From assembly GCA_001599355.1 (NCBI GenBank), contig BCGQ01000003.1:312468-376467 (forward strand): DNA of 64,000 nucleotides, read 5' to 3'. Position 1 is the first letter of the stretch. The number at the start of each line of letters is the position of its first letter. Positions 1 through 64,000 of this stretch are shown piece after piece. The DNA comes from Nakazawaea peltata (Eukaryota > Ascomycota > Pichiomycetes > Alaninales > Pachysolenaceae). The position numbers and the translations under genes were made by a program. The notes under the pieces are model-generated. The model saw nothing but the letters and a program-made list of their open reading frames with translations, was not told the DNA's origin and did no database searches.

Positions 1-1560
1 ATCAAATTTATAAAGCCCATTAACAATGTTGATCAATAAACTTAAATTTGACACCCATTGTTCAGTTTCTTCTTGAGTCAGCGTACATAATAGAATTTCG
101 AATAATTGAAATTGAGATTCAAAGACCAATTTGAAAGAACTTCGAACAGAAGGGACTAAACCTTCTAAATCTGAGCCTAACTTTGAAGCTGAGAGTGGGA
201 TCATATAAATAATACGCTGTGAAGAGACAGTGGCTCGCAAATTTAATAAAACAAAATGGCTCTTGTACAAAACTCCACAGCAATACTTCATATAGACGTG
301 AGAATTGGATTTTAAGTAGATGACTGCTAACGGTCCACAAAGAATAGGGGTACCAAGGAGTTTTGCATCGAATTTATATTTCTTTAAGGACTGGCAAAGA
401 AATGATGTAAGCCAATCGTATCTCTTTTGAGAGTTCTCACCTTGTCGCACTTCTTTATTCAAGGAGTCAAGGAAATGAGAATACTCGATAAAAGTAGAGA
501 CAATTTCTGATTTAATTTGAATCTCCCCAGATAATGAACTGTCACATTGTTCCAGTAAAGCATCCAAAAATAATCTATATTTGAAGAGTCGAGAGATTGG
601 AGCTTGTATTAAAGACAAAAGGCCCAAATCCATCTTTCCAGCTTGAGTTGTCTCAGTAAGCTTCTCCAATGCAGTCCTAATGTTCAGTACTATGGATGTA
701 TGCTGATTATTTGAAGCTAAGAGATTTTTCAAAAGGGCAATTAGATTCATACTGCAATTGTAGTATTGCAGGTATATGAATTTGGGAAAAGAGTTTCGCT
801 GGAAAGCTTTAGCAAAAGATGAGATATATGGGAGTGTTGCTGACGAATCGGAGGGACTCTGGGCCGAAGTGACTCTGAAATTGAAGAAACACTCCTGCAA
901 ATGATGCAGTAACTTCATATGGTGATCAATAATGACCATTAAAAGATCGTAACTGTAAATGAGGTGAGGAGAATCAACTTTCAAAGCTATCAATACTTCT
1001 AAATAATCTGATGATAATAATTTGAGGGAATCTAAATAAGTGGACTCTGTGTAGACCAATTCTTCTATAAGTTTATGTCTTTGGAAAGCTCTTGAAGTTG
1101 CAGATGAGTTTAAATAAACGTAATCTGAAGTTAATTGTGGAGATAGGCCGGAAGATACACTAAGTGGTGAGAATGGAAGGGGTAATACCGGAGAAATCAA
1201 ATCAGTTGGTGCAGTATGAAATATAAAATTTTCTTGATTTAACAGAGTTTGTTCATTATTAGATTGGGGGTGATGGTAGTTATAAGCTTGGTCTTCAGTT
1301 TCGAAATCACTTCCGTGGAGAATTGGTATATCAGTCGAATGCTTCTGCGTTGGTATCTCACTTGATCTCTCCTCTCTTGCATCCTCCCCACACTCATCCT
1401 CATTTTCTACCCCAGCTCCATCCACTCTCACCACCCTCTCACTCTCCCAAATCCATTCATCATTCCCAATAACCCCCCTACGCATCAGACTTATATACCC
1501 CCAAACAGGGTTATTCATTTTCATATCAGATCCAATTCCGCTTCCACTAATTCTCTCCAT
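1..1560 (-). CDS. Dbl-family Rho guanine nucleotide exchange factor, 3' end outside window
   Basis: The frame stays open from an ATG at 1560 (in-frame stop upstream) to the window edge, giving 520 residues without a stop; ATGs at 1524 and 1518 are alternative starts. After about 155 polar residues comes a Dbl homology domain (roughly 160-370): its first helix reads KLIEELVYTESTYLDSL, and the late helix carries PISRLFKYRLFLDALL, the counterpart of the family's QPIQRLPKYPLLL. A PH-like domain follows (about 395 onward) and is cut by the edge. Such proteins load GTP onto Rho or Cdc42 GTPases at the cell cortex. The short N-terminus argues against Cdc24, Bud3, Rom2 and Tus1, so I give no symbol. 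The start shares a 273-bp divergent promoter with the aldehyde dehydrogenase gene. Confidence 0.8.
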   Translation of the reverse strand, partial: MERISGSGIGSDMKMNNPVWGYISLMRRGVIGNDEWIWESERVVRVDGAGVENEDECGEDAREERSSEIPTQKHSTDIPILHGSDFETEDQAYNYHHPQSNNEQTLLNQENFIFHTAPTDLISPVLPLPFSPLSVSSGLSPQLTSDYVYLNSSATSRAFQRHKLIEELVYTESTYLDSLKLLSSDYLEVLIALKVDSPHLIYSYDLLMVIIDHHMKLLHHLQECFFNFRVTSAQSPSDSSATLPYISSFAKAFQRNSFPKFIYLQYYNCSMNLIALLKNLLASNNQHTSIVLNIRTALEKLTETTQAGKMDLGLLSLIQAPISRLFKYRLFLDALLEQCDSSLSGEIQIKSEIVSTFIEYSHFLDSLNKEVRQGENSQKRYDWLTSFLCQSLKKYKFDAKLLGTPILCGPLAVIYLKSNSHVYMKYCCGVLYKSHFVLLNLRATVSSQRIIYMIPLSASKLGSDLEGLVPSVRSSFKLVFESQFQLFEILLCTLTQEETEQWVSNLSLLINIVNGLYKFD

Positions 1561-3741: not shown

Positions 3742-3786
3742 ACTACGTAAACGAATTCAAAAAGTTATGTTCTTATATACATGTAG

Positions 3787-5909: not shown

Positions 5910-6136
5910 CTCCTCCCATACTTAAGAATTTTCAGAGAGAAATTCTAAGCGAAAATCTTGCAAGCCTCGGAAATTCAGCAAACTACGAATTCCCACAAAA
6001 AGAGTTGATAGTTTTATCAAGGTCGTGCAAAAAACTACAATTAAGCCTAGGAAAATGTCGAGGAGGCAGCACCTTTATCTAATTGAAGATATTTAGATAA
6101 AACAGCTGAAGGAATCAATCAATTATAATAGAGAAA

Positions 6137-6689
6137 ATGGTAAGTTTGGATTGGTATTGATAGTTAGATGGAATGAGGTTACTAACAAGTTGTAGTCCGG
6201 TATCCAAACCCTTTTGAAAGCTGAGAAGAATGCTCATGAAATTGTTTCTGAGGCCAGACAATGTAAGTATGACGGGAGTGCCAGATTGGAGCAGATGGCG
6301 GGAGAGTCAATGGGGGTATTATGATAGTTATTACCACCAATGTATCACATATTTTGATTACTAACTCGATTTAGACCGTGTTCTGAAGTTAAAGGCTGCT
6401 AAGGCCGATGCTGCTAAAGAAGTTCTGGCTTACAAGGCTGAAAAGGAAGCCGAATTGAAGAAATACGAGGCTGCTGTAAGTTTATCTACTTAATTTGGGA
6501 ATGTAATACATACTAACATAGTTATAGCATTCTGGTCTGAATGAAAGTGCTGATGCTGATGCCGAGAAGGGTGTCCAATCTGAGATTGAAGCCATCAAGA
6601 AAGCTGCCTCTGCCAAGGAAGACGCTGTCATTGACCTTTTATTGGGTGTTGTTACAAAACCAAACCCTGAATTGCACATCAATGCTTAA
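6137..6689 (+). CDS. VMA10: V-ATPase subunit G, four exons
   Basis: Exons are 6137-6139, 6196-6262, 6375-6475 and 6528-6689, giving 110 residues (yeast Vma10 is 114). Exon 1 is only the ATG. All donors are GTAAGT, and each intron has TACTAAC 9-10 nt before its acceptor. The product is the peripheral-stalk G subunit of the vacuolar proton pump: LLKAEKNAHEIVSEARQ matches the conserved N-terminal helix, followed by an Ala/Lys/Glu-rich coiled coil and the end KPNPELHINA (yeast KPSAEVHINAL). CTG codons in the helix read more naturally as Ala than Leu. Three introns in so short a gene is unusual for a budding yeast. It converges on RQC1 (47 bp). Confidence 0.93.
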
Positions 6690-6736
6690 ATAGGGTATCT
6701 AATTTACGGTTTAGAATAAAATATTTCATCTATTGA

Positions 6737-9138: not shown

Positions 9139-10286
9139 CTATACAGATTCCTTCTTATCTTCCTCAAGAGCCTTTTTAACAACTTGAAGCACAGAATTAC
9201 TATCCTTACCAGTTTCTCCTCCCTCCTTGATAAGATCTGTTAAACCTTTGATGACCTGAGGACTGAAATGCTCTACAAAAATCTTTCTTCTGGTCTCAAA
9301 ATCTTCACATGAGAGAGTATTGATATCAACCTTCACTCCAGTTGAAGAAATAGTACTGGTAGATGAACTATTAGCATCCAATTCACGGATAAATAATTTC
9401 AAATGCGCATACTGTTGAGGGGTTTGTTTGATCATGTAATGAGCAGTGAAAGGATGGACTGCATTGTATGTGTCTTGCTCATTGACAACTACTTGGGTAG
9501 CAAAAACAGATTTCTCGAGGAATTTCAGTAAAGTTTTCAAATGGAAACTTTTTGCCGTCTTTGCTACTGACGAAGTTTGGACATTATTTACTGCTAAACT
9601 TAATGATTTCTTGTTATTCATCTCGAGTTGCCAGTTCATTATTTGACAAAATTGTTTCAAAGTCTTGACAAAGAAACCCTTCACCAACGGATCTGACCCA
9701 TTCTCCAATAATATATCGAGGAACTTGGTCGAATCTCTTCGTATAGGTGGTTGAATATGTGACATGGCCGAGTGAATATATAATACGATAGATCTTGTAT
9801 GGAGTTCGATCAAGCCTGGTTGCTTAACCGCGATCAGCTTGAACAACAGCACAAGTTGGTCTCTAACTTGTTGAGAAAGATCCAAGATCAATGGAGTAAT
9901 AGTAGTCAAGATATCATTATATGCAGACGGGTTCGATGGGAGATGTTGCTCAATATAAACTAAAACTTCTTTTCTTGTAGTATTGGAGTGATGCTTTGTA
10001 AGAGATAAATGATGAGAAAGATCGACATCTGCTTTGGATCCGGGGAGTCCCACTCTCGATTTGAGTAATTTATTCTTTTCATTAAGAGATTGTTGTGGTA
10101 ACGAGATGGTCTTTGCCACAAATGAAGTGTCTGTGTGATTCGAAGCTCTAGGCAGAGTTTTGCCCACTTTTAATTTTGGTTTCTATAATGGGGTTAGTAA
10201 AAGCTAACTAGAATATATTTTCAAGTCGAATGGTCACTTACCACAAAATCCTTCTTCTTTTCAGCCTTCTTCTTCTTAGATCCCAT
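9139..10286 (-). CDS. IPI1: Pre-60S assembly factor Ipi1, one intron
   Basis: Exon 1 is 10242-10286 and exon 2 is 9139-10182. The 59-bp intron has a GTAAGT donor and TACTAAC 10 nt before TAG. The joined 362-residue protein begins MGSKKKKAEKKKDFVKPKLK and continues KVGKT, ASNHTDTSFVAKTISL, matching yeast Ipi1 (ASNATDTSFVSKTIS). It is a HEAT-like helical subunit of the Rix1-Ipi1-Ipi3 complex that processes ITS2 and helps remodel pre-60S particles. The upstream region carries RRPE-like and PAC-like elements, typical of ribosome-biogenesis genes. Confidence 0.92.
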
Positions 10287-22446: not shown

Positions 22447-25326
22447 TCACACCAACGACATATAAGCCTTTCTCTTACCAGTAATCTCATTAAGAACACT
22501 CTTAATCTCAACCTCACATTTATCAAATACCCCAACTTTTCTAACCTTTCCACTCTCCTTATCACTAATCTCTAAACTATAATTTTCCTCATCAAATTTC
22601 AAAGAATAATCTTCATCTAACTTGATCAAACTCTCAATACCAAATTTAGGAACCAACACAACAACACCATTACTAAACACTTTAATGATATACCCCTCTT
22701 GTCTATTATCCTTGTTATTTCTCATCACCTGTCCAACGAAATAATCGATCGATGCTCTACCGGCGAATTGAGCATTTCTATGACGTTTGTTAATATTCTT
22801 AACAATGAGCTCCATCTTGGATTTATCACGATGAGAAAGCAGTAAAGTTTCGTACCCAATTGCCCCAGCCAATTGTCTGTGCGCAACAACGTCACAGTAT
22901 CTTCTGATAGGAGAGGTGAAATGTGTGTAAATATCCACGGCTAAACCGTAATGCTTGAATTCCGGATAAGAGAAGGATCCCGATGGGAAATATTCGGCTG
23001 CCATCATACATCTGGTCGACATAATTCTTAATAAAGTGTTGAAATATTGGTCGTTTGGATCCACACAACGATCTAAAGAGTCCAGTAACAGTTTGGAGTT
23101 CTCCAAGGAAATCGACATGTTTTTACGTACTCTCAACATGTCGTTCAAGACTTCGAAATTGGTCAGTGGAGGAGCAGCATGTCTTCTTAACATGGCAGTT
23201 TGAGGGAACAGTTCGAAAATCTTACGAGCCACTGAGATATTGGCCAATAACATGAACTCTTCAACAAGGGAGTTGGTTTCAAACAATTGCTTGATCTCAA
23301 CCTCATTAGGATCAGCTGTCTCACTATCGACATGAACTTTAACTTCTGGAGATGCCAAATTCAAAGCACCAGCTGAGATTCTTTTCAGTTTCAATAATTT
23401 AGATAACTTCAATAATATACGCATTCCTTGAGTCAAATCGTCTTGTTGAGATTTGTCGTCGATTCTGGCTTGAGCCAGTTCATAACTGAACAGTTCCTTC
23501 GATTGAATAATACTTTTGTTGAACTTCACATTCACAATATTAGCGTCGGAATCCAATTCCCATAAGACACTGAAGGCATATCTTTCGACATAAGGTTTCA
23601 AAGAACACAAATTGGTACCTAATAACATTGGTAACATATCGATTCTCTTGTCAACAAGATAAACAGAGGTACCTCTTCTAGAGGCCTCAACATCAATGGC
23701 AGTATCAGCCTTGACAAAGTTAGTCACATCAGCAATATGTACACCAACTTCATAGTTTCCATTAGGTAACAATTGCAGATGTAAAGCATCATCGATATCA
23801 ACACATCCTGGAGGGTCAATTGAGCAAATAAGTTTGTCACGAAGATCCCATCTACGTTTGATCTCATCCTCAGAAGGTTTCCAGTTATCTCCATCGGCTG
23901 GCAAACAGTCTAAGACATTCTTAGTGAAAGGTTTGTATTCGACGTCATGTTCTAATAATAACAGTTCAGTCTCCAGTCCGGCATCTTCTACTTCACCAAG
24001 AGATCTAACGAAATGACCTTCAGGGTATTTGGAAGTCGATGGCCACGAATCAATAGCAACTACAATACGTTTTCCAGCTAACTCCTGAGATCTTCTGGTT
24101 CTAATTCTAACAGTAGGTAAAGTTCTGTCCATCAAATTGACAAAACAAACCTTCAAAGAGTTACCTGCTGAAACACCAGAGCTTGGGGCGATAGTTCCTA
24201 CATATTGTCTCCAACTTCTTCTAACAATACCTACAACACGACCAGTTGGTTGGATTTTCTCCTCACGTTGATGCTTGGCCAGCTCAGTAGTAAGTAATCT
24301 TCTCTCCAGATCACTAATAGTGATGTTATTGTCCTCATTGTAAGTGTCATCTTCAGTGGTAATGATCTCATTGGAGGAAGTACGCCATGAACTCTTCGGT
24401 AAGATCTCAACAATACACAGATCACCACTGAAAGCTCTATTCAAATTGTTTCTGCCAACGATTAATAATGGTTTAGGCAATGAATTCAATTGGATAGTTC
24501 CTTCTAAGAAATTATATGAAGACACATTGATTATACCTTGATGCAAAGACCCGTTCTTAATACCGGCCATTAACCTGGAAGTTGGGTAATACTCAGGGTA
24601 AGAAATCTCTTTAGCGGAATGAGAGAAATCAACTTGATCAGCTCTTTGCGGAATCAAATCAAGTAACTCTTCAGCATTAGGGAATTTAGATACATACTCT
24701 TCTAAATTGAACAGTAATCCTTCTAACAGTTGGGACAAATTAGCACGATCATTGGTGATCAATACTGTCTTGATTCCATGCTTACTCAAATGCTCATTAT
24801 AATATTCAGTGACCTTTCTGATCAAACGATCATTGTAATCGTTAATGGACTCACCTTTACTACGAGGAGTATAAGTATGCTCATTGAACTCATTATGGAA
24901 CACAATAAACCTCTTCAGATCACTGTTGGTCAAACTTCTCAACCTCATATATATAGGGAGACTCTTATTCCGTACCTCTTCCAATACAGTTTGAGGCACA
25001 ATCACATCATACATGATCTTCTCACTCTCTAAGAGGTCGATACATCCAAGCACAATGTTAGTATCTACTACCACATAGTGTTTGCCGACTCCTGGTAAGG
25101 TGGATGGGTCTTCACTCAAGATGAATTTCGGAAGTTTACCATCGGCATCAGCATGAGCAATCTCTGGACACTCAGTACAAGCTTGCGAATAACATGGGAT
25201 ATCGTTTCTAAGGTAATGTTCTCTCACTATTTTGGTGGCATTACCGTATCTTGATCTCACGAAGACTTTGGATGTTACGGATAATCCTGAGGCAAGTCTT
25301 TTGCGAGGGTTTAACGTTTGGGACAT
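22447..25326 (-). CDS. DIS3: Exosome catalytic subunit Dis3/Rrp44
   Basis: A 959-residue RNase II-family 3'-5' exonuclease and PIN endonuclease of the nuclear and cytoplasmic exosome (yeast 1001). The N-terminal CR3-type cysteines ([11 protein letters not shown]) precede the PIN domain ([10 protein letters not shown]88; LITNDRANL). Cold-shock domains follow, then the RNB domain with [16 protein letters not shown] near 505 (metal-binding Asp residues present), [20 protein letters not shown], and a C-terminal S1 domain (about 870-955). Both nuclease sites look intact. Five CTG codons (23083, 23089, 23491, 23962, 23974) fall where yeast Dis3 has Ala. The promoter has PAC- and RRPE-like elements. 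Confidence 0.97.
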
Positions 25327-25680: not shown

Positions 25681-27234
25681 CTAATCAGTCCACTCCAAAT
25701 ACTCCTCTCCAAACTTAGACCCCTTACTATTCTTCTCCAATACAATCCCAATCTTATACTCCAATCCCAACTTACCATCATACTTACGGTTAAAGTATTT
25801 CATAACCTCATCCTTAGTAACGGCATACGACCTATTGGAGTCATCGTTACCAGTGATGTAATTCTTGATTTCCTGCGCAGATGGTAAATTATAACTGTGA
25901 GGATACTCATTGAAAGTGACATCGAAGAAATTCTCAATCTCCAATTCGCTAAGAGCTTTCAAGATTGGAGATTCATGCTCAGCTTCCTTCAGTTGCTTCA
26001 ATTTTTGAGATGGGGACAACTCAAAGCTATCAACAAGGCGACTCATCTCAGGGGAAGCACTCATTAACTCCTTCTCAATCACATCTACTGGAAGATCGGA
26101 GACAGTGGCATACTTGAACTGAGGTGTTCTGTCTTCAACGTTTGGAGATTTTTTATTGATAAGTCTCTTGGTGATACATTCATTGAAGTCATTGTACTCT
26201 GGTTTGTGCATCATGTTAGCGGCCAAGATCAATTCATTCTTTAACAGTTCTTGGATATTGGTTTCTCTTCCCTTCTTTAACATCTCCATAATCAAATATA
26301 ATGAGACTGGAGACTTGGTCTTCAAAGTAGCCAAAGTCTTAGCGGCAAATTCCGAAGAATCTTCAGATAAAGCCTCAATGACTTGATGAATCGTCAATTT
26401 AGGATCGAAACAACGCTCGATAGTACTCAATTGCTCTAAAGTATAACTAAATTTGTAATCTCTAGGCATTGGTTCCAGGAACTCTTCGATAGTATTGTTG
26501 ATCTTGGAGAAAAGTTCTTGTTGATCATGTTCTCCATCTTCAAAATTATAATCGATTTGTGATAATCTCAGAGTCAATTCGTCGAATTTTCTAACAGGAA
26601 CGTAATGAGTGGCTACACCAGCAACAAACAGATCCAATCCTTGTAAAATTTCACCTGTCAACAGTAAATAGTAACCTAAATTGTAATCCAATTTGTTCAA
26701 GAAGAAGGTAGTTCCCACATCAGAGAAGAATCCAATGTTCGATTCAGGCATGGCAAACTTTGTTCCTTCACAAGCGACTCTGAAAGGTGTATGAACCGAC
26801 AAACCGGCACCCCCACCCATAGTGATCCCATTCAACAATGATACTATCGGCTTGTTATAAGTACTCAACAAGAAGTTCAAGTTATATTCTTTGTTAAAGA
26901 AATCAATCGACTTATCCAGTTGACCAGAAGTGTTCAATTTGGTACATTCAATGATATCACCACCCGAACAGAAATTTGGCTCACAACTGGACTTCAAAAT
27001 GACCAAATTCAGTTGCAGACTCTTACTGTACTCTTTCAATCTTGGAGTCATCTTGTCCACCATGGAAGTGTTCAATGCATTATACTTGGAAGGTCTATTC
27101 AAAGTGATTACTCTTGCTTGGTTTTGGACGTGGAAAAGTACGTCATCAGCGGTAGAAGTGCTCATCATGGCTTTAATGTTGGTTAATGCCGACCCAATAG
27201 CCCTTCTTCTCAAATTAACAGAGCTACTTAACAT
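25681..27234 (-). CDS. EHD3: Mitochondrial 3-hydroxyisobutyryl-CoA hydrolase
   Basis: A 517-residue crotonase-fold hydrolase (yeast Ehd3 is 500). It cleaves 3-hydroxyisobutyryl-CoA in valine catabolism; yeast Ehd3 is also found with mitochondrial ribosomes. The N-terminus is Arg/Ser-rich and lacks acidic residues, like a matrix signal. Motifs: NRPSKYNALN, NFCSGGDI (oxyanion-hole region), NGITMGGGAGLS and MPESNIGFFSDVG. CTG at 26662 falls in YL[CTG]LTG, where HIBCH proteins have LALTG. The promoter region (27235-27641) holds a CCAGAATCAG triple repeat near its far end. Confidence 0.93.
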   Translation of the reverse strand: MLSSSVNLRRRAIGSALTNIKAMMSTSTADDVLFHVQNQARVITLNRPSKYNALNTSMVDKMTPRLKEYSKSLQLNLVILKSSCEPNFCSGGDIIECTKLNTSGQLDKSIDFFNKEYNLNFLLSTYNKPIVSLLNGITMGGGAGLSVHTPFRVACEGTKFAMPESNIGFFSDVGTTFFLNKLDYNLGYYLLLTGEILQGLDLFVAGVATHYVPVRKFDELTLRLSQIDYNFEDGEHDQQELFSKINNTIEEFLEPMPRDYKFSYTLEQLSTIERCFDPKLTIHQVIEALSEDSSEFAAKTLATLKTKSPVSLYLIMEMLKKGRETNIQELLKNELILAANMMHKPEYNDFNECITKRLINKKSPNVEDRTPQFKYATVSDLPVDVIEKELMSASPEMSRLVDSFELSPSQKLKQLKEAEHESPILKALSELEIENFFDVTFNEYPHSYNLPSAQEIKNYITGNDDSNRSYAVTKDEVMKYFNRKYDGKLGLEYKIGIVLEKNSKGSKFGEEYLEWTD

Positions 27235-35724: not shown

Positions 35725-36552
35725 CTATTTCTTAGAACGTAACTTGCCAGCTTTATCAGCAGCCACCAGAACCAGATCAGCAACAACGTATCTGAAGTTT
35801 CCTCTCTCTAAAGCCATGATACCATCAATGGTAGTGCCTCCTGGAGTACAAAGAGAGGTAATGATTTCATCAATCGATTTACCTGATTCCTCAATCATAG
35901 CCAGAGTTCCTTTCAAAACACCTAAAATCATCTGCTTGCTCATATCCAGAGTCAATCCACGTGAAACACCACCCTTGATGATGGAATCAATGAAAATACT
36001 GGTATACAGAGTACTGCAACCCAAGACAGATCCCACCGCACCAAGACTATTAGGCTTAATAGGGATCATGGAACCGATATTCTCGAATAATCCTAAGACA
36101 TCTGTTTCTAACCCGGACTCCTTTGCCGAATCGCTCAACATGTACGCAATTGGAACCTTGGCGTAATTGATTAAAGTGCTGGTCATCACAACCCCGCATT
36201 TATCAGAGTATGCAAGAAGCTCATCGGTCTCAACCCCGGCGATAATAGACAAAAGAAATTTATCTGATAACAAATCTTTGATCAGATCTAAAGTGGACAT
36301 ACAATGAGCAGGTTCCACGGCAATTAACACGGTATCAGCATTCTTGGTCAGAGCATAGTTATCATTAGTGTACTCTACAACAATTTTGCTGGAGGACCCT
36401 GAAAATTTCTGCTCAAGCTTCTCTAAAGATTCCTTAGATTTAGTAGTGAGAATCAACTTTTCAAGTGGGCAATTCGGTAAGCCAAGGATTGAACCTGCAA
36501 GAGCAGAGCCCATGTGACCGCAGCCTAAAATAGCTAAAGATTTAATTGACAT
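35725..36552 (-). CDS. Divergent pyrroline-5-carboxylate reductase-like protein
   Basis: 275 residues of the P5C reductase family (Pro3, last step of proline synthesis). The N-terminal Rossmann start LAILGCGHMGSALAG and the C-terminal CTPGGTTIDGIMALE are typical. The middle is not: the usual MPNTP block reads MTSTLIN, and the GSGPAY substrate motif reads GCST[CTG]Y, or GCSTAY with CTG as Ala. The family's helix-rich dimer domain follows at normal length. This could be a second, sub-functionalised reductase rather than the housekeeping Pro3; whether another copy exists cannot be seen here. It converges on RPC11 (244 bp). Confidence 0.75.
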   Translation of the reverse strand: MSIKSLAILGCGHMGSALAGSILGLPNCPLEKLILTTKSKESLEKLEQKFSGSSSKIVVEYTNDNYALTKNADTVLIAVEPAHCMSTLDLIKDLLSDKFLLSIIAGVETDELLAYSDKCGVVMTSTLINYAKVPIAYMLSDSAKESGLETDVLGLFENIGSMIPIKPNSLGAVGSVLGCSTLYTSIFIDSIIKGGVSRGLTLDMSKQMILGVLKGTLAMIEESGKSIDEIITSLCTPGGTTIDGIMALERGNFRYVVADLVLVAADKAGKLRSKK

Positions 36553-36708: not shown

Positions 36709-38323
36709 TCATTGGAGGGTAGAGTCTTTAGAGTCTTCTTTTGGTTCATCTTTGGAGTCGTTCTTTGGTTCTTCCTTTGGTTCTTCCTTTGGCTCCTCCT
36801 TTGGCTCCTCCTTTGGCTCCTCCTTTGGCTCCTTTGGCTCCTCTTTACTCTCCTTCTTAATTCCCCTGGCTGTCAAAAAGCTAAATACCTCCCCATTGTT
36901 AAATCCATCAATAAAGTTAAAGAACCCATGGAATACATTCTCTTGAACTTCCTCCTTGTAGATCTTATCATAAATGTATTTCATCTTGAAGTCGAGCATT
37001 TCTTTCTCAAATGGAGCAAAGGTGATGTCATTGTATCCTAAACTGTTCAATCTGGAGTTATAACTTTCATAGACTGGTTGCTCCAATAACAAACCTAAAG
37101 CGGGCAGCTTTGGAATATTGATTTTTTCGGCATTGAACAGCTCGTTAATTCTCTCTAATGGACATCCGGTTCTCACCACCAAGGAAATCATAGCGATCAT
37201 TTTTCTGATTTGATGCAACATGAAACTTTGACCATGGATTTTGATGGAACACCATTCGGTACCTTCAATGACAAATGGCTTAGAGATGGTCAAAGATTTC
37301 ATATAACGCTGGGCAGATGGGTCCTTGAAAGACTTACCTAAAGTGAAGTTATGGAAGTTGTGATGACCCAAATAATAATTCAACAGCTGCTGGACAAGAT
37401 CGACTCTTTCCTCACTAATTCTATAAGATCTTCTACATTCATTCTCTATTTTCTTAATTCTCTTAATCAACTTGGAGACATCAGAATCCATGTTATCTTC
37501 CTCATGGTTGATCAAACCTTGCAAAGCACGTTCGACATCTTCATCGGAGATGCCATTCTCGTTCAACTTGTCATTGACGGATTTCCACCACAGTTCACCT
37601 TCCAGATCATCTCTGGCAATGCCCGGGTAATTCTCCTTGGCTTCTCTAATTAATTTACCCAATGGGGTAGTTTTCTTAGGGGGAAGGAAAGAATAGGTGG
37701 GGATCAAATATTCGTAGACTCTGGAAGAGCACATTCTTCTACAATCGAAACCTTTATTGGTTCTTTCGATTCCCCAGACTTTAATTTGATCAGGTAAGTA
37801 AGAATTGATCTTCTCAATGATATCTTCATCCTCAATAATCATCTTCAACGAGATGACGTTACCAGCAGCATGAACACCTTTGTCGGTTCTGGCTGCTCTT
37901 TGGAAACCACTTTTTTTCAAGTCATTCGAATTATTCATAGAAATGGCTCCCAGCTTAACAAACGCATCAAAAAGATCACCTTCAATAGTTTTACTTGGTG
38001 GGTTGAATTGCATTCCATGGTATCCAGTACCACAATATCCAACAAGACAGGCAACTTTTTTCTTAGGTCTTCTCTGCTCAGCTACCAGGTTGCCCTGTTC
38101 ATCAACAATACGTCTATAATGTGTTAGTAGTCTTCAAAAGCCACATATGATCTCCAAAACATACCCACGAGTTGGTCTTCTCTCTCCAAACCAGTTCAGA
38201 TTTGGCTTTTTTGGACTCTCTGGAGTCTTCTTCAGACTCCCGCTTACGAACGGTTGGTTGAACCAGAGATTCTGGTTCCATCTCTGTATGCTCCTGTGTA
38301 GTATTTTGAACATTGTCTGACAT
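36709..38323 (-). CDS. PUS1: tRNA pseudouridine synthase Pus1, one intron
   Basis: A TruA-family enzyme modifying tRNA positions such as 26-28, 34-36 and 65-67, and U2 snRNA. Exon 2 (36709-38113) carries RRPKKKVACLVGYCGTGYHGM, the catalytic Asp in RAARTDKGVHA, NFHNFTLGK and IHGQSFMLHQIRKMI, then a KEEP-repeat tail. Exon 1 ends at a tandem donor GTGGGTATGT. Starting at 38323, only the GTGGGT site keeps frame (519 residues, acidic Lys-rich N-terminus). Starting at 38313 in another frame, the GTATGT site keeps frame (517 residues, Arg/Trp/Asn-rich N-terminus). TACTAAC lies 9 nt before the acceptor. CTG at 37105 and 37138 align with Ala in yeast Pus1. The exact N-terminus is unsure. Confidence 0.85.
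36769..36840 (-). repeat. 12-bp coding minisatellite in PUS1 tail
   Basis: Roughly six to seven near-identical units of GGCTCCTCCTTT (and TT-for-GC variants) encode KEEP repeats near the C-terminus, beyond the catalytic fold. Copy number is probably variable between strains. Confidence 0.85.
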
Positions 38324-38559: not shown

Positions 38560-39105
38560 ATGAGACCTTTAACTGAAGAAGAAACCAAGGTGGTTTTCGA
38601 AAAATTGGCCAACTATATCGGTCGTAATATTGCATACCTTATAGATAATAAGGAGAATCCTCACGTATTTAGATTACAGAAGGACAGAGTATACTATGTG
38701 AGCGAGAAGATTGCTAGATTTGCTACATCTGTTGAGAGATCTAAGCTCATGTCATTGGGTGTTTGTTTTGGAAAGTTCACCAAAACTGGAAAGTTCAGAT
38801 TACATATCACCTCCTTGGAGATCTTGGCTAAGTATGCCAAATACAAAGTATGGATCAAGCAAAATGGAGAGATGCCATTCTTGTATGGAAATCATGTTTT
38901 GAAGGCTCATATTGGTAAGATGAGTGAGGATATCCCAGAGCATGCCGGTGTCGTGATATTTTCCATGAGTGATATCCCATTAGGTTTCGGTGTTAGTGCT
39001 AAATCTACTGTAGAACTGAGGAATATGCAACCAAATGCCATTGCTGCTTTTAGACAAGGTGATATTGGTGAATATTTAAGAGAGGAGGATTCCTTATTCA
39101 CATAA
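38560..39105 (+). CDS. NIP7: 60S ribosome biogenesis factor Nip7
   Basis: 181 residues, the same length as yeast Nip7 and nearly identical in stretches ([58 protein letters not shown]). The N-terminal alpha/beta domain is followed by a C-terminal PUA RNA-binding domain. It functions in 27S pre-rRNA processing with Nop8 and Rrp43. One CTG replaces a Ser of yeast Nip7 (STVE[CTG]RNMQP), consistent with a small residue rather than Leu. The stop is 28 bp from that of SRP72. Confidence 0.97.
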
Positions 39106-47354: not shown

Positions 47355-49218
47355 ATGTCGGGGAGATCAATGCTGGGGAGATTGATGTTGAGAAGCTTGA
47401 TATCACGTCAGGGTAGACGTCTCATTTCTACTTCTGTTTCAGCAAATAAACCCTATGAAAGATCTCAACCAATAGGTAAGGACATTTTACTGCCGTTGAT
47501 ACCTCAACCCACCGTTTCAAGACTTCTGAACTTGAAAGAGAATGCTTTACCTTTCTCTCATTTCTTAACCGATAATTTCAACAGACAACATAATTATTTA
47601 CGAATTTCTATAACGGAAAGATGTAACTTAAGATGTGTTTATTGCATGCCAGAAGAAGGTATAGAATTGAGCCCTTCAGAAGACTTACTAAGCACAGATG
47701 AGATCATCCGTTTGGCTGAATTATTTGTATCTCAAGGTGTCACCAAAATCAGACTTACAGGTGGTGAACCTACTGTGCGAAAAGATATAGTTGAGCTTGT
47801 GTCTCGTTTACATAAGATCGAGGGCTTGAAAGACATTTGTATCACATCTAATGGTATTGCCTTACATAGAAAGCTCCCTCTGCTATTTGAGAATGGGTTG
47901 ACTTCTTTGAATCTTTCTCTTGATACTTTGGTAGAGGGCAAATTTTTATTGATCACCCGCAGAAATGGCTTATCTGCGGTAATGAAATCACTTCGTAGTG
48001 CATTACTGCTCAAAGTTCCAAAAGTGAAAGTTAATATAGTTATTATGAAAGGAGTCAATGAGGACGAAATTTTGAATTTTGTCGAGTTGGCTAGAGATGC
48101 CCCTATAGAAGTACGGTTTATAGAGTATATGCCATTTGATGGAAACAAATGGTCAAATAATAAGATGGTCACATTTGAAGATATGTTATCTAATATCAGT
48201 GTGGCTCATCCGTCTATCAGAAGAATGGAACATAAGCATGGAGATACTCTGAAAGTGTATCAAATTGATGGATTCCAGGGGAAGATTGGATTCATCACTT
48301 CGATGACTGAAAATTTCTGCTCAACTTGCACTAGATTAAGACTTACTAATGACGGTAATTTGAAAGTTTGTCTTTTTGGAAACGAAGAAGTTTCCCTCAA
48401 AGATCTAATGAGGAAAGGTGTGTCTAATGACGAATTGTTGAATGTCATCGGAGCTGCAGTCAAATCGAAGAAAGAGAAGCATGCAGGTCTTGGCGAGTTG
48501 GAGAACATGCCGAATAGGCCTATGATTTTAATTGGTGGGTAGGTTTATCTTTTATGGAGAGAAATTGTGTGGGGTCTGAATACTAACTAGTGTAGATAAA
48601 TGGCAAGGTATATTAAGGAATGGGAACAATTGGGCAAGTAGAAGGTATTATTCAACCTCAAGATCTGTTAACGAAGAGGCAGCTACAGATGGAAAATTAC
48701 CCCACGCTAACAAGGATAACGTGGGTCAAGAGTCGTGCGCTGACCAAATTTTGACCCACGTTAACGAAAACGGTGAAGCTAATATGGTTGACGTGGGGTC
48801 GAAATCTATCACTCAAAGAAAAGCTATAGCTTCCGGATTGATCTCATTCTCTAACCCTACAGCAATACAGTTAGTAAGATCAAATACCAATAAGAAAGGA
48901 GATGTGTTAGGAGTCTCTCGTATTGCCGGAATTATGGCCACTAAACGGACCCTGGAATTAATTCCATTATGTCATCCGATTCCTATCACCAAAGTTACTC
49001 TTGATATTGATATTGTGAATGATACTCAAGTCAGAGCCACCTGTACAGTAAAATGTGATGGTAAAACTGGTGTGGAAATGGAACTGTTATGTGGGGTTAA
49101 CGTTGCCTTACTTACAATGTATGATATGTGTAAAGCTGTTGATAAGTATATGGTGATGCATGATATTCAAGTGATCCATAAGAGTGGAGGAAAGAGTGAT
49201 ATTACAGTCAAGGTATAA
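47355..49218 (+). CDS. cnxABC: Bifunctional MoaA-MoaC (MOCS1/cnxABC-type) Mo-cofactor protein, one intron
   Basis: Makes cyclic pyranopterin monophosphate from GTP, the first stage of molybdenum cofactor synthesis. Exon 1 encodes a mitochondrial-type N-terminus and a radical-SAM MoaA domain (CNLRCVYC near 92; C-terminal cluster CSTCTRLRLTNDGNLKVC), ending NRPMILIGG. Exon 2 (from 48596) encodes MoaC (ELIPLCHP, GVEME[CTG]LCGV, LTMYDMCKAVDKYM, KSGGKS). Splicing 48534 to 48596 joins them in frame (600 residues); splicing at 48538, or no splicing, stops right after Gly-Gly (395 residues). TACTAAC is 8 nt before the acceptor. S. cerevisiae lacks this pathway; it implies nitrate reductase or another Mo enzyme. 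CTGs at 48952 and 49084 align with Ala in MoaC. Confidence 0.92.
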
Positions 49219-50699: not shown

Positions 50700-51317
50700 A
50701 TGAGTTCATACGAGTTGACGTAAGTTTGAGATGATATCAATTGATCGGAGGATGAGTTACTGACTGAATTTAGAACTGGAGAGAAAAATCCAAGGGGTAT
50801 CCCACAGGCCAAGTTCATTGAGAACATTGATGCCTTCATTAATAGTAAGTCTCCAGATAAGCTGCTTATAGATCTGAGATTGGGTCAATTACAAGATTTA
50901 CTCAACCAGTTCAAGTTCATGGAGGAATCTAAGAAAGTCACATTACAAAATATGAAGGTCAAGGTACCTGATTTAAAGCAGAACATTGAGATCGTTAAGA
51001 ACTTGAAGGAGAATAAAGGAGAGAAACAGCAAGTGAATTATCAATTAAATGAGACATTGTATTCAAGAGCCACCGTAAATGATGATTTGGATAGTGTATA
51101 CCTTTGGTTGGGTGCTGACGTCATGTTGGAGTATCCATTGGACGAAGCTTTGGAGATGTTACAGCAACGTTTAGAAGCTGCCGAAAAATCCAAGCAGACC
51201 ACAATAGAAGATTTAGAATTCCTCAGGGAAAACATTACCACGATGGAAGTCAATGTAGCAAGAGTTTACAATTGGGATGTTAAGAGAAGAATGGAGGAAT
51301 CAGCTGCTCAAAAATGA
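50700..51317 (+). CDS. PAC10: Prefoldin subunit 3 (Pac10), one intron
   Basis: Exons 50700-50719 and 50774-51317 (GTAAGT donor; branch TACTGAC 9 nt before TAG) give 187 residues (yeast 199). It is an alpha-type prefoldin subunit, delivering nascent tubulin and actin to the CCT chaperonin. The family signature GIPQAKFIENIDAFI follows the junction; two coiled-coil helices flank a beta hairpin containing WLGADVMLEYPLDEA, with ENITTMEVNVARVYNWDV at the end. The branch point is the only one of nine here that departs from TACTAAC. Confidence 0.95.
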
Positions 51318-55231: not shown

Positions 55232-56578
55232 ATGAACCGAGTAGTCACCAAAGCAGTGATGAATGGAGTATTTGCAGTAGAGAAACCTTCTGGGATCTCA
55301 TCGGCCCAATGTCTTTCGAAGATTCAGCGTGTCTTCACCAATTCCAGCGTCTTCGCTGCCGATTTGGCCGCCATGAAGGCCACAAGATTAGACAATTATA
55401 ATCGTGCTGGCGGGAAAGGTTCCCGGCGTAAATTGAATAATATCAAGGTCAAAATGGGTCATGGAGGAACATTGGATCCCTTAGCTTCAGGAGTCTTGGT
55501 CATTGGAATTGGAAATGGTACTAAAGTTTTACAGAATTATCTCAATGGAAGTGTGAAAGTTTATGAGACAGAGGCATTGATAGGAGCTAGTACAACTACG
55601 GGAGATTCAGAGGGGGAAGTGTTATTGAAGACTAAGTTTGATCATATCGATAAAGAGTTAGTGGAGAAGACCAGAGAGAAATTTGTAGGTGAAATCACCC
55701 AGACTCCACCATTATTCTCGGCCCTTAAAATGGATGGTATGCCATTGTATGAATATGCTAGGAAAGGTATTCCATTACCGAAGAAAATCAAGTCTAGAGA
55801 GGTCAAGGTGTTCTGGATCGATGTTAAAGATGATACTCTCTCGTTTGGCCACGATTATGAGTTCAAAAAATCCGAAGTAGACGAGGATGGTGTACCTTTG
55901 GATAAGAAATTGTCCTCCAATCCCACTTTAGATGGGGATAAATTGTACTTCTCCAAGGAATATTATGACAAGGCTGAGAAGGAGGGACTTCCCAAGGATG
56001 TTGATCCTCCAAAGTTAATAGACGATGCTCAAGCTGCTGAATATTCCTCTGCTGGTTTCAAAGCTCCTTTGTTACATTTTGTCTCTAAAGTTTCATCTGG
56101 AACATACATCAGATCGTTGATTAGCGACTTTGGTAAGGCGTTATCTTCGTCGGCATATATGGTGAAGTTGATTAGAGTTGAGCAGGCTGAGTGGAAGCTT
56201 GGGAAGAATGTGTTTAAGATGGAGGATTTTGAGAAAGATGAGAAGGTTTGGTCAGTAGCACTTAAGAAGGTGTTGGATAGTGGGGCAGAGGTTGATTTGA
56301 GTAAGGAATTGGAGGAGGCGGAGAGGGAGTGGAGGGAAAGTGGAAGCGAAAAAGTGGAGGAGATTGAGGGTGAGACTGAGGCTGAGAAGACCGAGGGTGA
56401 GGCTGAGAAGACCGAGGGCAATTCCGAGGGCAATTCCGAGGGCAAGGTTGAGAACATCGAGGATAGCACCGAGGGCAATTCCGACAACACCAATCAAAAT
56501 ACCCAACCATCCCTCAAAAGACAAAGAGAACAAGACCAACACCCCTCACCCCCTTCTACTAAACAAAAACTCAATTAA
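55232..56578 (+). CDS. PUS4: tRNA pseudouridine-55 synthase Pus4
   Basis: A 448-residue TruB-family enzyme that makes pseudouridine 55 in cytoplasmic and mitochondrial tRNAs. Motifs: GVFAVEKPSGISSAQ near the start, MGHGGTLDPLASGVLVIGIG with the catalytic Asp, FVGEITQTPPLFSALKMDG, and SGTYIRSLISDFG. Two insertions, typical of fungal Pus4, lengthen the core. The C-terminus is an acidic repeat of EGEAEKTEG/NSEG units (about 390-430). Upstream, GAGCGATGAGTGATGAG at about 54972 resembles PAC. The stop lies 25 bp from that of MID1. Confidence 0.95.
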   Translation: MNRVVTKAVMNGVFAVEKPSGISSAQCLSKIQRVFTNSSVFAADLAAMKATRLDNYNRAGGKGSRRKLNNIKVKMGHGGTLDPLASGVLVIGIGNGTKVLQNYLNGSVKVYETEALIGASTTTGDSEGEVLLKTKFDHIDKELVEKTREKFVGEITQTPPLFSALKMDGMPLYEYARKGIPLPKKIKSREVKVFWIDVKDDTLSFGHDYEFKKSEVDEDGVPLDKKLSSNPTLDGDKLYFSKEYYDKAEKEGLPKDVDPPKLIDDAQAAEYSSAGFKAPLLHFVSKVSSGTYIRSLISDFGKALSSSAYMVKLIRVEQAEWKLGKNVFKMEDFEKDEKVWSVALKKVLDSGAEVDLSKELEEAEREWRESGSEKVEEIEGETEAEKTEGEAEKTEGNSEGNSEGKVENIEDSTEGNSDNTNQNTQPSLKRQREQDQHPSPPSTKQKLN

Positions 56579-58446: not shown

Positions 58447-58532
58447 AACCCAATCGCGAAGTCAAGTGGTGAAAGAAGGGGAAGAAGAGACACTTTGATA
58501 CACCAGATCAAATAATATCGAGTACTTTTATA

Positions 58533-59498
58533 ATGTCACTGAATTTACCTTGGATCGAGAAATATAGACCAAACAATTTGAGCGAAGTTCATGGTCAGCA
58601 AGGAGTGGTAGACACGGTGAGGAAATTCGTGGAAGAAGGCAAGTTGCCTCATTTATTGTTCTATGGACCACCTGGAACTGGTAAGACTTCGACTATCATT
58701 GCATTAGCCAAAGAAATGTATGGAAAGAACTATAAGAACATGGTTTTAGAATTGAATGCTTCTGATGATAGAGGTATTGAAGTAGTACGTGATCAGATCA
58801 AGACATTTGCTTCGACTCAACAAATTTTCAGTAGAGGTTTCAAGTTGATCATTTTGGATGAGCTGGATGCCATGACTAATGTTGCTCAAAATGCATTGAG
58901 AAGAGTTATTGAGAAGTATACGAAGAATACTCGGTTCTGTATCTTGGCCAATTACTCCCATAAAATGAACCCTGCCTTATTATCTCGTTGTACTCGATTC
59001 AGATTCCAACCTTTGAGTGAGGACTCTATTAAAGAGAGAATTGATGAGGTTATCACTCTGGAAGGATTAAAAGTTTCTGAAGATGCCGAATCTCTGTTAT
59101 TAGGTTTGGCTCAAGGTGATATGAGAAAACTGTTGAACGTTTTACAATCTTGTGCCGCTGCCGTCGACAAGGGAGAAGAAATCACAACTACTATGATCTA
59201 CGACTGCATTGGTGCTGCTCACCCTGAAGATATCGAGTCTGCCTTAGATATCATCTTGAAAGAAGAATTCTCTACACTGTACATGGGATTAGAAAAGCTC
59301 AGAACTTCGAAAGGATTGGCAATCATCGACTTGGTCACCTCTTTCGTAGAGCTTTTGAAAAATTACGAGTTAACTAACAAACAACTTTCTGAAATTTTGA
59401 GGCAATTCGCCGACGTCGAGTATGCTCTTTCCAAAGGTACTTCTGATAAGGTTGCTTCTACCGCAGTAATAGGTATCCTCAAGGGAGCCTTCCTGTAA
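58533..59498 (+). CDS. RFC3: Replication factor C subunit 3
   Basis: A 321-residue AAA+ clamp-loader subunit closest to yeast Rfc3 (340); it loads PCNA at primer ends. NLPWIEKYRPNNL, GPPGTGKTS Walker A (45-53), LILDE-type Walker B near 109, SRCTRFRFQPL arginine-finger motif and RNA-primer-domain helix QGDMRKLLNVLQS are all present. Five CTG codons (58863, 59058, 59094, 59130, 59277) align with Ala, or are compatible with it, in yeast Rfc3 or human RFC5. The Walker B becomes the standard DEAD only if CTG is Ala. Rfc2 and Rfc4 are less similar. Confidence 0.96.
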   Translation: MSLNLPWIEKYRPNNLSEVHGQQGVVDTVRKFVEEGKLPHLLFYGPPGTGKTSTIIALAKEMYGKNYKNMVLELNASDDRGIEVVRDQIKTFASTQQIFSRGFKLIILDELDAMTNVAQNALRRVIEKYTKNTRFCILANYSHKMNPALLSRCTRFRFQPLSEDSIKERIDEVITLEGLKVSEDAESLLLGLAQGDMRKLLNVLQSCAAAVDKGEEITTTMIYDCIGAAHPEDIESALDIILKEEFSTLYMGLEKLRTSKGLAIIDLVTSFVELLKNYELTNKQLSEILRQFADVEYALSKGTSDKVASTAVIGILKGAFL

Positions 59499-59665: not shown

Positions 59666-60814
59666 ATGTATCGCCAAGGCTACGGGAGTGAAGAACAACA
59701 ACAGCAGCTTAGAAATTTGCAAGGACAATCATCGGCTAATATTATTTTGCAGAAGAATCAAAATATGATGCAACTGTTTTCACAGAATCAACAACAACAG
59801 CAGCAGCAACAAGGTCAACAACAGACGGCGCTGCAAATACAACTGAACGCGCTGCTTCAAAGCATATTGAAAGGGGAGAGTCCATCGATGAACCCGAGTG
59901 GAATCTCGCCACTTCCACTGCATGTTCTGTTGCAACAACAGCAACAACAGCAACAACAACCAGGAGTGCCTATGGCCTCAGGTAACAGAGCATTGAGTGA
60001 TGAAAAGGTGTACCAGTGGATTGTAGAGTTAGTTTATGGGTCTGCCGCAAGCAGAGAACAAGCATTGTTGGAATTAGGAAAGAAAAGAGAGTTGTATGAT
60101 GACTTGGCATTACTGTTATGGCACTCATTTGGGGTGATGACATCTCTTTTGGAAGAGATCACCGCTGTATACCCATTGTTGTCTCCACCTCAATTGGGAC
60201 TGCTGGCCTCTAATAGAGTTTGTAATGCGTTACTGTTGTTACAATGTGTTGCATCTCATCAAGAGACAAGAAATGCCTTCTTGAGTGCTCATATCCCACT
60301 TTTCTTGTATCCTTTCTTGAGCACCTATTCGAAACAAAGACCATTCGAGTATTTGAGATTAACATCCTTAGGAGTTATTGGTGCCTTGGTTAAAAATGAC
60401 ACCCCAGAGGTGATTTCGTTCTTGTTGACTACCGAGATCATCCCATTATGTTTACGTATCATTGAATCATCATCAGAATTATCCAAGACTGTTGCGATCT
60501 TCATTGTTCAAAAAATCTTGGTTGATGATGCCGGACTTAACCATGTATGTGCTACTTTCGAGAGATTTAATGCCGTTAACAATGTATTGAGATTAATGGT
60601 TGAACAATTAGTCGAACAACAAACTGTTAGACTCTTAAAGCATGTAGTAAGATGTTATCTCAGATTATCTGATAATGTCGATGCTAGAAAGCTGCTTAGA
60701 AAGACTCTTCCAGAACCTCTTAAAGATGCTACATTTAGTGCAGCATTGAGAGATGATAATGCTACGAAAAGATGTTTGGCTCAATTGTTGGTAAATATTA
60801 GTGAGCCGAATTGA
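59666..60814 (+). CDS. CAF40: CCR4-NOT subunit Caf40 (CNOT9)
   Basis: 382 residues. A Gln-rich N-terminus (about 7-110, several CAA/CAG runs) precedes the armadillo-repeat CNOT9 domain, nearly identical to yeast and human proteins: [64 protein letters not shown]. Caf40 recruits mRNA-binding proteins to the deadenylase complex. The frame extends upstream through a TTG; the ATG at 59666 is chosen because yeast-type MYRQ-like polar sequence follows. CTGs at 60233 and 60692 align with Ala in human CNOT9. Confidence 0.96.
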
Positions 60815-61394: not shown

Positions 61395-64000
61395 ATGTCT
61401 ACTCATTCGTATAAGAAATTCGAATACTCGGATTCTGGCGCGTTGCCAGACAAGATGACTGTTTTCCAGGACTGTTTACAGCTCTTCAATCAGTCTCCTG
61501 TCCTGGCCAAACGTTGCCGCGTTTATTTGGCCCGCTTATTGAGATTATTACACGCCGGTGAAACTTTCCCAGCTCAAGAAGCTACTTCATTATTCTTCTC
61601 GGTCTCAAAGCTTTTCCAACATCAAGACTCCTCTTTGAGACAATTGGTTTATTTGGTCATCAAGGAATTGTCCGCCATCAGTGACGATGTCTTGATGGTC
61701 ACTTCGTCCATCATGAAGGATATTCAAAATGGTGAGTTGATCTATAAGCCAAATGCCATCAGAACTTTGGCGCGTATCTTGGATGCTTCCACTGTCCAAG
61801 CTACTGAAAGATTGATGAAGAATTGTGTCGTTGATAAGAATCCAAGTGTTTCTTCCGCAGCCTTGATTTCTTCTTATCAATTATTACCAGTTTCGAAGGA
61901 TGTTGTTAGACGTTGGGCCAATGAGACTCTGGAAACTATCAATGCCACCAAGAGTTTCCCACCACAACAATTCATGACCCATGAGAATTATGGTGCCAAC
62001 AAGTTGCCTTCTGCCACTTATGCCTATCAATACCATGCTTTGGGATTGTTGTACCATTTGAGAAATCACGATAGAATGGCATTATCCAAGTTGATCAACT
62101 CTTTGAGTAGTTCATCTAGTCCATTGAGAAATTCAATGGCCATTCTTCAATTGATCCGTTACGTTGGTCAAATTATCAAGGAGGATCCAAAATCTGCCAC
62201 TTCTTTCTTCCCTGTTTTACAAGGTTATTTGAAGAACAAATCTGATATGGTAGAATTGGAAGCTGCTAAGACTATTTTGGGTGTCAGTTCATTCTCTAGT
62301 GAGCAACATTCTAGTGCTATTGCATGCTTACAAGTTCTTTTGACCGTCCCAAGAACTGTCACCAGATTTGCTGCCGTTAGAATTTTGAACAAAATCCTGA
62401 TGAAGACTCCAGAGAAAATCGTCATTTGTAACACAGAATTGGAAGGTTTGATCAATGATCCAAATAGATCCATCTCTACATATGCTATTACTACTTTACT
62501 TAAGACTGGAAACAACGAGAACGTTGACAGATTGATCAAGGTTATCTCCAAGTTCATGAGTGAAATTTCCGACGAGTTCAAGATCGTTGTTGTTGATGCT
62601 ATCAGAAACTTGTCTTTGAAATTCCCAGAGAAATACGAGACTATGTTGAACTTCTTGAACGATTCTTTGAGAGACGATGGAGGATTCACTTTCAAGAACG
62701 CAATCGTCGAAGCTTTGTTCGACATGATCAGTTTCATTCCAAAATCGAGAGATACTGCGTTGGAATATTTGTGTGAGTTCATCGAAGATTGTGAATTCAG
62801 TGAATTGACCGTTAGAATCTTGTACTTATTGGGTAATGAAGGTCCAAAGACCTCTAATCCAACCTTATATATCAGACATATCTATAACCGTGTGGTTTTG
62901 GAGAATTCAATTGTCAGATCTTCGGCCGTCATTGCCTTGTCCAAGTTTGCATTCGTGGGAGATGAGTCCGTATCGAAGAGTATTAAGATTTTATTGGAAA
63001 GATCATTGAATGATGTTGACGATGAGGTTAGAGACAGAGCTACTTTATCATTGAAGTTGATTGCCGAGTCTGAAAAATCCAAATTGGTGAAAGATTTATT
63101 GGTTCCTACCTCTACTTATTCATTGCCAATTTTAGAACAAAAGTTGAGTGCTTATTTGAGTGGTGATAAGGACAGTTTCCAAACTCCATTTGACATTTCT
63201 TCTGTTCCTATTTTGTCAATTGAGGAACTGAAACTGCAAGAATTGAAGAAGAAGAGTGCTGCTATAGAAGTAGAACAAGAGGCTCTGACTTCTGGTGCTG
63301 GTTCTAATGCCGATTCCGAACCAGAAGAGACTAATTATTTGATCAAACAAAGTATGTCTCAACAACAATACTCTCAAGAGTTGGCTGCAATCCCAGATTT
63401 TGCAGAGTACGGCAACTTATTGCACTCTTCTGATATCATTGAATTGACAGAAGCCGAGACCGAGTTTGTCGTCACTGCTGTCAAGCATGTCTTTGCCGAC
63501 CATTTGGTCTTACAATTCAATGTTCATAACACTTTGAATGAGGTTCAATTGCACGATGTATCGGTAGTTGCCCAACCAGACTCAGAGGTTTATCTGGAAG
63601 AATTCATGATGCCTATCGATGTTTTGGCTCCAGAAGCCAAGGGTACCGTTTATGTTTCGTACACTAGACCAGAAGCTGTAGAATTGACATCATTCTCAAG
63701 CACTTTGACCTTTGTATCAAAGGAGATCGACCCATCTACTGGAACAATTGTCGAAGATGACGAAGGATTCCAAGATGAGTATCAAATCGAGGAATTATTG
63801 GTCACCCCAGGTGACTTCATCACTCCTCTCTTTGTACAAGACTTCACTAAGCAATGGGATGAATTCGAGGTCCAAGACTCTGCCATGTTCAATATCACCG
63901 ACTACTCTGATTTACAAGAGCTTGTCACCAGAATTATTTCCTCATTATCGATGCTTCCTATTCAAGGTACCGAAGATGTCAAGGACGGAGCCACTTCTCA
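61395..64000 (+). CDS. SEC21: COPI coat gamma subunit Sec21, 3' end outside window
   Basis: The frame is open from ATG 61395 to the window end (868 complete codons; yeast Sec21 is 935). Gamma-COP is the large adaptor-type subunit of coatomer in Golgi-to-ER traffic. The helical solenoid (about 1-560) has NPSVSSAALISSYQLLP, YQYHALGLLYHLRN and FMSEISDEFKIVVVDAIRNL. After a Glu-rich linker, the appendage begins with IELTEAETEFVVTAVKHVF, as in human COPG1 (ALTESETEYVIRCTKHTF). CTG at 62397 lies in NKI[CTG]MK, where human COPG1 has NKVAMK. Only the end of the appendage is missing. Confidence 0.96.
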   Translation, partial: MSTHSYKKFEYSDSGALPDKMTVFQDCLQLFNQSPVLAKRCRVYLARLLRLLHAGETFPAQEATSLFFSVSKLFQHQDSSLRQLVYLVIKELSAISDDVLMVTSSIMKDIQNGELIYKPNAIRTLARILDASTVQATERLMKNCVVDKNPSVSSAALISSYQLLPVSKDVVRRWANETLETINATKSFPPQQFMTHENYGANKLPSATYAYQYHALGLLYHLRNHDRMALSKLINSLSSSSSPLRNSMAILQLIRYVGQIIKEDPKSATSFFPVLQGYLKNKSDMVELEAAKTILGVSSFSSEQHSSAIACLQVLLTVPRTVTRFAAVRILNKILMKTPEKIVICNTELEGLINDPNRSISTYAITTLLKTGNNENVDRLIKVISKFMSEISDEFKIVVVDAIRNLSLKFPEKYETMLNFLNDSLRDDGGFTFKNAIVEALFDMISFIPKSRDTALEYLCEFIEDCEFSELTVRILYLLGNEGPKTSNPTLYIRHIYNRVVLENSIVRSSAVIALSKFAFVGDESVSKSIKILLERSLNDVDDEVRDRATLSLKLIAESEKSKLVKDLLVPTSTYSLPILEQKLSAYLSGDKDSFQTPFDISSVPILSIEELKLQELKKKSAAIEVEQEALTSGAGSNADSEPEETNYLIKQSMSQQQYSQELAAIPDFAEYGNLLHSSDIIELTEAETEFVVTAVKHVFADHLVLQFNVHNTLNEVQLHDVSVVAQPDSEVYLEEFMMPIDVLAPEAKGTVYVSYTRPEAVELTSFSSTLTFVSKEIDPSTGTIVEDDEGFQDEYQIEELLVTPGDFITPLFVQDFTKQWDEFEVQDSAMFNITDYSDLQELVTRIISSLSMLPIQGTEDVKDGATS

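Follow-up and report, generated by a model that had tools for sequence, protein, structure and literature searches.

The 64-kb window analysed here, the whole stretch of 64,000 nucleotides from contig BCGQ01000003.1, almost certainly comes from the nuclear genome of a budding yeast in which CUG stands for alanine (NCBI translation table 26), as judged from the proteins that it would encode. Three partly independent comparisons, two of them with codon controls, confirm alanine as the dominant predicted meaning of the codon: scores of Pfam domains, residues of homologues with solved structures, and alignment columns of prokaryotic homologues. A preliminary description of this DNA had claimed that CTG stands for alanine and not for leucine or serine, and the three comparisons agree with that claim; CUG is not read mainly as leucine or serine in any of them. 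In 32 gene models CTG makes up 240 of 16,367 codons (14.7 per 1000), and a standard-code annotation of the window would misplace leucine for alanine at about 15 per 1000 codons. The phenomenon is not new, since the reassignment of CUG to alanine has been described before in a single small group of yeasts. What our results add is that it can be confirmed from sequence alone, within a single 64-kb piece, with codon controls.

The first comparison was based on Pfam domains. A Pfam-A scan with table 26 covered thirty genes, and 20 of them, all carrying at least one CTG inside a matched Pfam stretch, were rescanned with tables 1 and 12, so that 29 non-overlapping domains could be compared. These domains hold about 92 CTGs, a slight overcount because the ABC_tran row spans beyond its Pfam stretches; RRF, IPI1 and MID1 (one domain CTG each), the SRP72 gene (two) and overlapping secondary families were left out. 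Summed over the domains, the margin of alanine is 109.4 bits over leucine, with 23 domains in favour of alanine, 2 tied and 4 opposed, and 53.9 bits over serine, with 22 in favour, 2 tied and 5 opposed. When domains were bootstrapped, the advantage of alanine over either amino acid was never zero or below in 20,000 draws. The largest gains over leucine were obtained for P5CR_dimer (92.4 with alanine, 78.0 with leucine, 84.1 with serine), ECH_2 (338.7, 326.6 and 332.6, in the same order) and DEAD (101.8, 90.6 and 94.1).

Further information was obtained from homologues with solved structures. For ten genes, translations in which X stood for CTG were aligned to protein sequences of the Protein Data Bank (PDB), and the best chain per gene was kept. 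Some of these chains stand in for orthologues: ABCF1 for the GCN20-like gene, DDX28 for the DEAD-box gene and coatomer gamma-1 for SEC21. For each codon, a 20-way test trained on the other codons gave the amino acid that best explains the aligned residues, and codons having another synonymous codon served as controls. The residues found at the 71 CTG sites were alanine (21), valine (7), glutamate (7), glutamine (7), lysine (5), serine (5), leucine (4) and others. Alanine was the best explanation, with glutamine 31.5 bits behind, serine 37.1 and leucine 119.5, and 57 of the 58 control codons were called correctly, the miss being AGC (11 sites). At the 45 CTG sites in conserved context the lead of alanine is 21.4 bits over serine and 88.8 over leucine; here 56 of the 58 control codons were called correctly (misses: AGC, 5 sites, and CTA, 4 sites). 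Realignment of pairs shifted one DIS3 site, codon 205, from threonine to glutamate. By gene, alanine was found at 9 of 17 CTG sites in DIS3, 3 of 5 in RFC3, 3 of 6 in PUS1, 2 of 6 in SEC21, 2 of 8 in EHD3, 1 of 3 in the GCN20-like gene and 1 of 8 in the DEAD-box gene. The identity of RFC3, DIS3 and CAF40 to yeast PDB chains is 63-68%.

Prokaryotic homologues provided the third comparison. There were 30 per gene, except for MoaC (49) and P5CR (32), and their label as archaeal or bacterial was inferred from the titles of the reference records. Some redundancy is present, with two loci of one genome in the MoaC and P5CR sets, and the MoaA set takes in five distant radical-SAM relatives (L142-L146). 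In five genes (RFC3, EHD3, MoaC, MoaA and P5CR) the 25 CTG columns score +33.5 for alanine, -7.1 for serine and -51.4 for leucine. In seven genes, with DIS3 and GCN20 added later, the 40 CTG columns score +32.5 for alanine, -22.1 for serine, -32.6 for glutamate and -69.1 for leucine. When 40 columns of codons other than CTG were drawn at random 20,000 times, no draw matched the alanine score of the 40 CTG columns. All controls were called correctly in both gene sets, 59 out of 59, as one of the 60 other sense codons does not occur in the columns. Judged in this way, every other testable sense codon keeps its standard meaning.

The preliminary description had also listed 20 positions at which in-frame CTG would coincide with alanine in the respective protein family. 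All 20 coordinates proved to hold CTG in the reading frame of the gene stated (sites on the minus strand were given by the lowest base of the codon), and at 14 of them the alignable homologues clearly have alanine (Table 1). The list was somewhat optimistic for the other six: MSC7 2461 and 3142, CAF40 60233 and 60692, MoaC 48952 and EHD3 26662. The residue of the PDB chain is leucine at CAF40 60692, and serine is the commonest residue at MoaC 48952. In the case of MSC7, the relatives above threshold were four loci in 3 of 40 genomes, all of them distant bacterial ones; they have His, Leu, Cys and a gap in the column of 2461, and Asp, Gly, Gly and Ala in that of 3142, so that these four relatives give no support for alanine at either site. 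The conclusion that CUG means alanine does not depend on the six weak sites. At the five listed DIS3 sites alanine is present in the Dis3 chain in all five cases, and it is the commonest bacterial residue in one of them (23962). Search outputs name molecules only, and we take the PDB chains compared at the listed sites to be those of Saccharomyces cerevisiae. The final sense codon of RFC3 (codon 321, 59493-59495, plus strand) is also CTG.

Several observations weigh against reading CUG as alanine. Leucine gives a better score than alanine in four Pfam domains (RhoGEF, ABC_tran, FA_desaturase and AAA), the difference being 1.7 bits or less, and serine does so in five others (Aldedh, PFF1_C, Helicase_C, Adaptin_N and Tcf25), with differences of 0.7 bits or less. 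AAA is a general family, and its Walker B column is 96% alanine among the 30 archaeal RFC homologues. In the solved-structure alignments, no alanine was found at the CTG sites of CAF40 (0 of 5), ORC2 (0 of 5) and VMS1 (0 of 8), and codon 343 of CAF40 corresponds to leucine in the PDB chain. Alanine is moreover kept at 21 of 71 CTG codons as compared with 130 of 247 GCN codons (Fisher p 0.0007); after removal of VMS1, ORC2 and DDX28 it is kept at 20 of 50 and 110 of 195, respectively. Finally, the bacterial columns of DIS3 and GCN20 add nothing for alanine, whose score goes from 33.5 with five genes to 32.5 with seven. Both proteins are distant from their bacterial relatives.

The presence of alanine at only 21 of the 71 sites could be explained by ambiguous decoding, mostly as alanine and partly as leucine or serine, as would occur if two tRNAs competed for the codon or one tRNA were mischarged. 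Partial decoding of this kind is expected to raise the frequency of leucine or serine at CTG above that at GCN codons, and no significant excess of either was found. In the solved-structure homologues, leucine occurs at 4 of the 71 CTG and 10 of the 247 GCN codons (p 0.52), and serine at 5 and 23 of them, respectively (p 0.64). In the prokaryotic columns the mean frequencies at CTG and GCN are 0.029 and 0.048 for leucine, and 0.075 and 0.059 for serine, again without a significant excess. We thus regard ambiguous decoding as very improbable; the comparison is blind to low-level misincorporation either way, which could amount to a few per cent.

Slightly less probable still is a serine meaning of CUG like that of the Ser1 clade (Candida) or the Ser2 clade (Ascoidea, Saccharomycopsis). 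Serine ranks second in the prokaryotic test and in the conserved-context solved-structure test, it is preferred by the five Pfam domains mentioned above, and single sites fit it, such as MoaC 48952 and codons 721 and 829 of DIS3, where the PDB chain has serine. However, it loses to alanine in the prokaryotic test by 54.6 bits (bootstrap 95% interval 29.2 to 81.4), in addition to its deficits in the Pfam and solved-structure tests, and CTG codes for near-invariant alanine positions, as in the DEAD motif of RFC3 and the MEAL motif of MoaC. Serine as the dominant meaning of CUG is accordingly rejected by 37 to 55 bits across the three tests. The standard code, with the observed pattern arising from chance or bad alignment, is rejected with a negligible chance of being right. 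The four Pfam domains, by their small margins, and the CAF40 site speak for it, but leucine ranks 14th of 20 in the solved-structure test and 15th of 20 in the prokaryotic one, and the five other leucine codons are all called leucine in the full solved-structure and prokaryotic sets, the exception being CTA (4 sites), miscalled in the conserved-context subset.

With alanine as the predicted meaning, it can be asked how CTG is distributed among alanine positions. CTG accounts for 240 of the 1,082 CTG plus GCN codons in the 32 gene models. In seven genes its share is 6 of 39 in columns with at least 80% alanine and 34 of 136 where alanine is below that level (raw counts), while in five genes it lies between 0.22 and 0.28 in every alanine-conservation class, with no trend. 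We had considered that CUG could be at equilibrium with GCN; this was dropped after the seven-gene counts and the comparison of 21 of 71 with 130 of 247 sites. The data lean towards a slight shortage of CTG at the oldest alanines, although this is confounded by alignment quality. It is tempting to propose, with some reserve since we think it rather less likely to be right than wrong, that CUG is an incompletely equilibrated fifth alanine codon, used freely at variable alanines but less often where alanine is most conserved, since a GCN codon there needs two base changes to become CUG. If this were true, the window would show to what extent a reassigned codon has entered old alanine positions, among them the near-invariant ones in RFC3 and MoaC, and double (tandem) substitution at fixed alanines would become measurable across the clade. 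In any case, conserved alanines encoded by CTG would be good places to study the colonisation of old positions by a reassigned codon. We also considered that most of the CTG alanines arose by a single mutation from another residue (Val, Gln, Met, Pro, Arg or Leu). This was rejected, as such residues are found at 19 of 50 non-alanine CTG sites and at 49 of 117 GCN ones (p 0.73).

Some genes contain no CTG. HEM12 has none in 364 codons (Poisson P 0.005) and a TruB/Pus4-like gene none in 448 (P 0.001), both values being uncorrected for the 33 gene models. HEM12 and RPL18 had been described beforehand as seeming to avoid CTG. The zero counts hold for both genes, and avoidance specific to a gene becomes weak once all 33 gene models are considered.

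No tRNA gene was detected in the 64-kb window with ARAGORN and Rfam. Alanine tRNAs have as their identity rule the G3:U70 acceptor pair. The CUG-Ala clade, as described for budding yeasts, comprises Pachysolen, Nakazawaea and Peterozyma, and its CUG-Ala tRNA is a novel one with anticodon CAG, derived by anticodon mutation from a pre-existing tRNA(Ala) gene (PMC5951914). The order of this clade is now named Alaninales (PMC11540330); a recent survey includes 17 of its genomes (PMC12322030), and in a computational screen of 462 yeast species CUG translation is reported to fit the known clades in 453 (PMC8629427). Because no nuclear code other than table 26 has CUG as alanine among those treated in PMC5951914, PMC11540330 and PMC8629427, we provisionally assign the window to this clade; that it comes from one of its members is the simplest reading. 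The window shares with the clade the use of CUG at alanine positions, the unchanged meaning of the other tested codons and a nuclear gene content of budding-yeast type, and no difference was found on the features compared (codon meaning and gene content). In the CUG-Ser1 clade (table 12) the identical codon is reassigned in budding yeasts; however, CUG in the window is not serine, by the margin in bits given above. The CUG-Ser2 clade involves the same codon too, whereas in the window CTG is present at the frequency stated for the 32 gene models and is read as alanine.

Table 1. CTG codons with the residues of their homologues, and other frames of the window. Percentages refer to bacterial homologues for P5CR, EHD3, MoaC and DIS3, and to 30 archaeal homologues for RFC3.
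Feature	Position	Strand	Residue in PDB chain	Prokaryotic homologues or remarks
RFC3 codon 111 (Walker B DEAD Ala)	58863..58865	+	Ala (Rfc3)	Ala 96%
RFC3 codon 188	59094..59096	+	Ala (Rfc3)	Ala 62%
RFC3 codon 200	59130..59132	+	Val (Rfc3)	Ala 88%
RFC3 codon 249	59277..59279	+	Ala (Rfc3)	Ala 87%
DIS3 codon 748	23083..23085	-	Ala (Dis3)	Asn 48%, Gln 34%, Arg 18%
DIS3 codon 746	23089..23091	-	Ala (Dis3)	Ser 42%, Ala 19%
DIS3 codon 706	23209..23211	-	Ala (Dis3)	Ala outside the five commonest residues
DIS3 codon 612	23491..23493	-	Ala (Dis3)	all Arg
DIS3 codon 517	23776..23778	-	Ala (Dis3)	Ile, Val, Leu, Phe
DIS3 codon 455	23962..23964	-	Ala (Dis3)	Ala 43%, Ser 40%
DIS3 codon 451	23974..23976	-	Ala (Dis3)	Val 32%, Ala 27%
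PUS1 codon 303 (IPKAPALG)	37105..37107	-	Ala (Pus1)	
PUS1 codon 292	37138..37140	-	Ala (Pus1)	
PUS1 codon 21	37951..37953	-	Ala (Pus1)	
MoaC open-frame codon 169 (MEAL)	49084..49086	+		Ala 100% in 49 homologues
MoaC open-frame codon 125	48952..48954	+		Ser 52%, Ala 23%; Ser favoured over Ala
P5CR-like codon 182	36007..36009	-		Ala 95% in 32 homologues
P5CR-like codon 260	35773..35775	-		Ala 82%
P5CR-like codon 217	35902..35904	-		Ala 70%
P5CR-like codon 68	36349..36351	-		Ala 62%
EHD3 codon 202	26629..26631	-	Ala (mS47/Ehd3)	Ala 74%
EHD3 CTG	26662		Cys (mS47/Ehd3)	Gly 53%, Ala 47%
SEC21 codon 335 (NKVAMK)	62397..62399	+	Ala (coatomer gamma-1)	
CAF40 CTG	60233		Val (Caf40)	
CAF40 codon 343	60692..60694	+	Leu (Caf40)	
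RPL18	49411-49887	-		presumed identity; 0 CTG in 159 codons; frame without ATG
NIP7-like frame	38560-39102	+		presumed identity; 181 codons, one CTG
TruB/Pus4-like pseudouridine synthase gene	55232-56578	+		presumed from motifs; 448 codons
Open frame of 834 codons	44022-46523	-		24 CTG
RPC11-like frame	35184-35477	+		presumed identity
Prefoldin-subunit-like frame	50745-51314	+		Pfam match
IPI1-like frame	9142-10182	-		Pfam Ipi1_N
V-ATPase subunit G-like frame (VMA10)	about 5950-6700	+		presumed identity

Regarding the other genes of the window, the names HEM12, MSC7, RPL18, NIP7, PUS4, RPC11, VMA10 and GCN20 are presumed here. A MoaA gene (47355-48539, plus strand; Pfam Radical_SAM and Mob_synth_C) adjoins MoaC (48580-49215, plus strand), both belonging to molybdenum-cofactor synthesis, a pathway linked to nitrate assimilation. 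The adjacent pair therefore suggests a nitrate-assimilating yeast. The frame of MoaC has its ATG at 48784 but continues open in the 5' direction back to 48580, with a stretch resembling a mitochondrial presequence; an intron, a fused transcript or a two-part transcript are possible explanations.

The 834-codon frame gave no Pfam match and lies where the G+C content of the window, taken over 4 kb, is highest (0.446). Since the RPL18 frame lacks an ATG, an intron near its start is likely. The RPC11-, prefoldin-, IPI1- and V-ATPase subunit G-like frames are open 5' of a plausible start or interrupted by stops, and these genes possibly contain introns near their 5' ends, several of them in one window.

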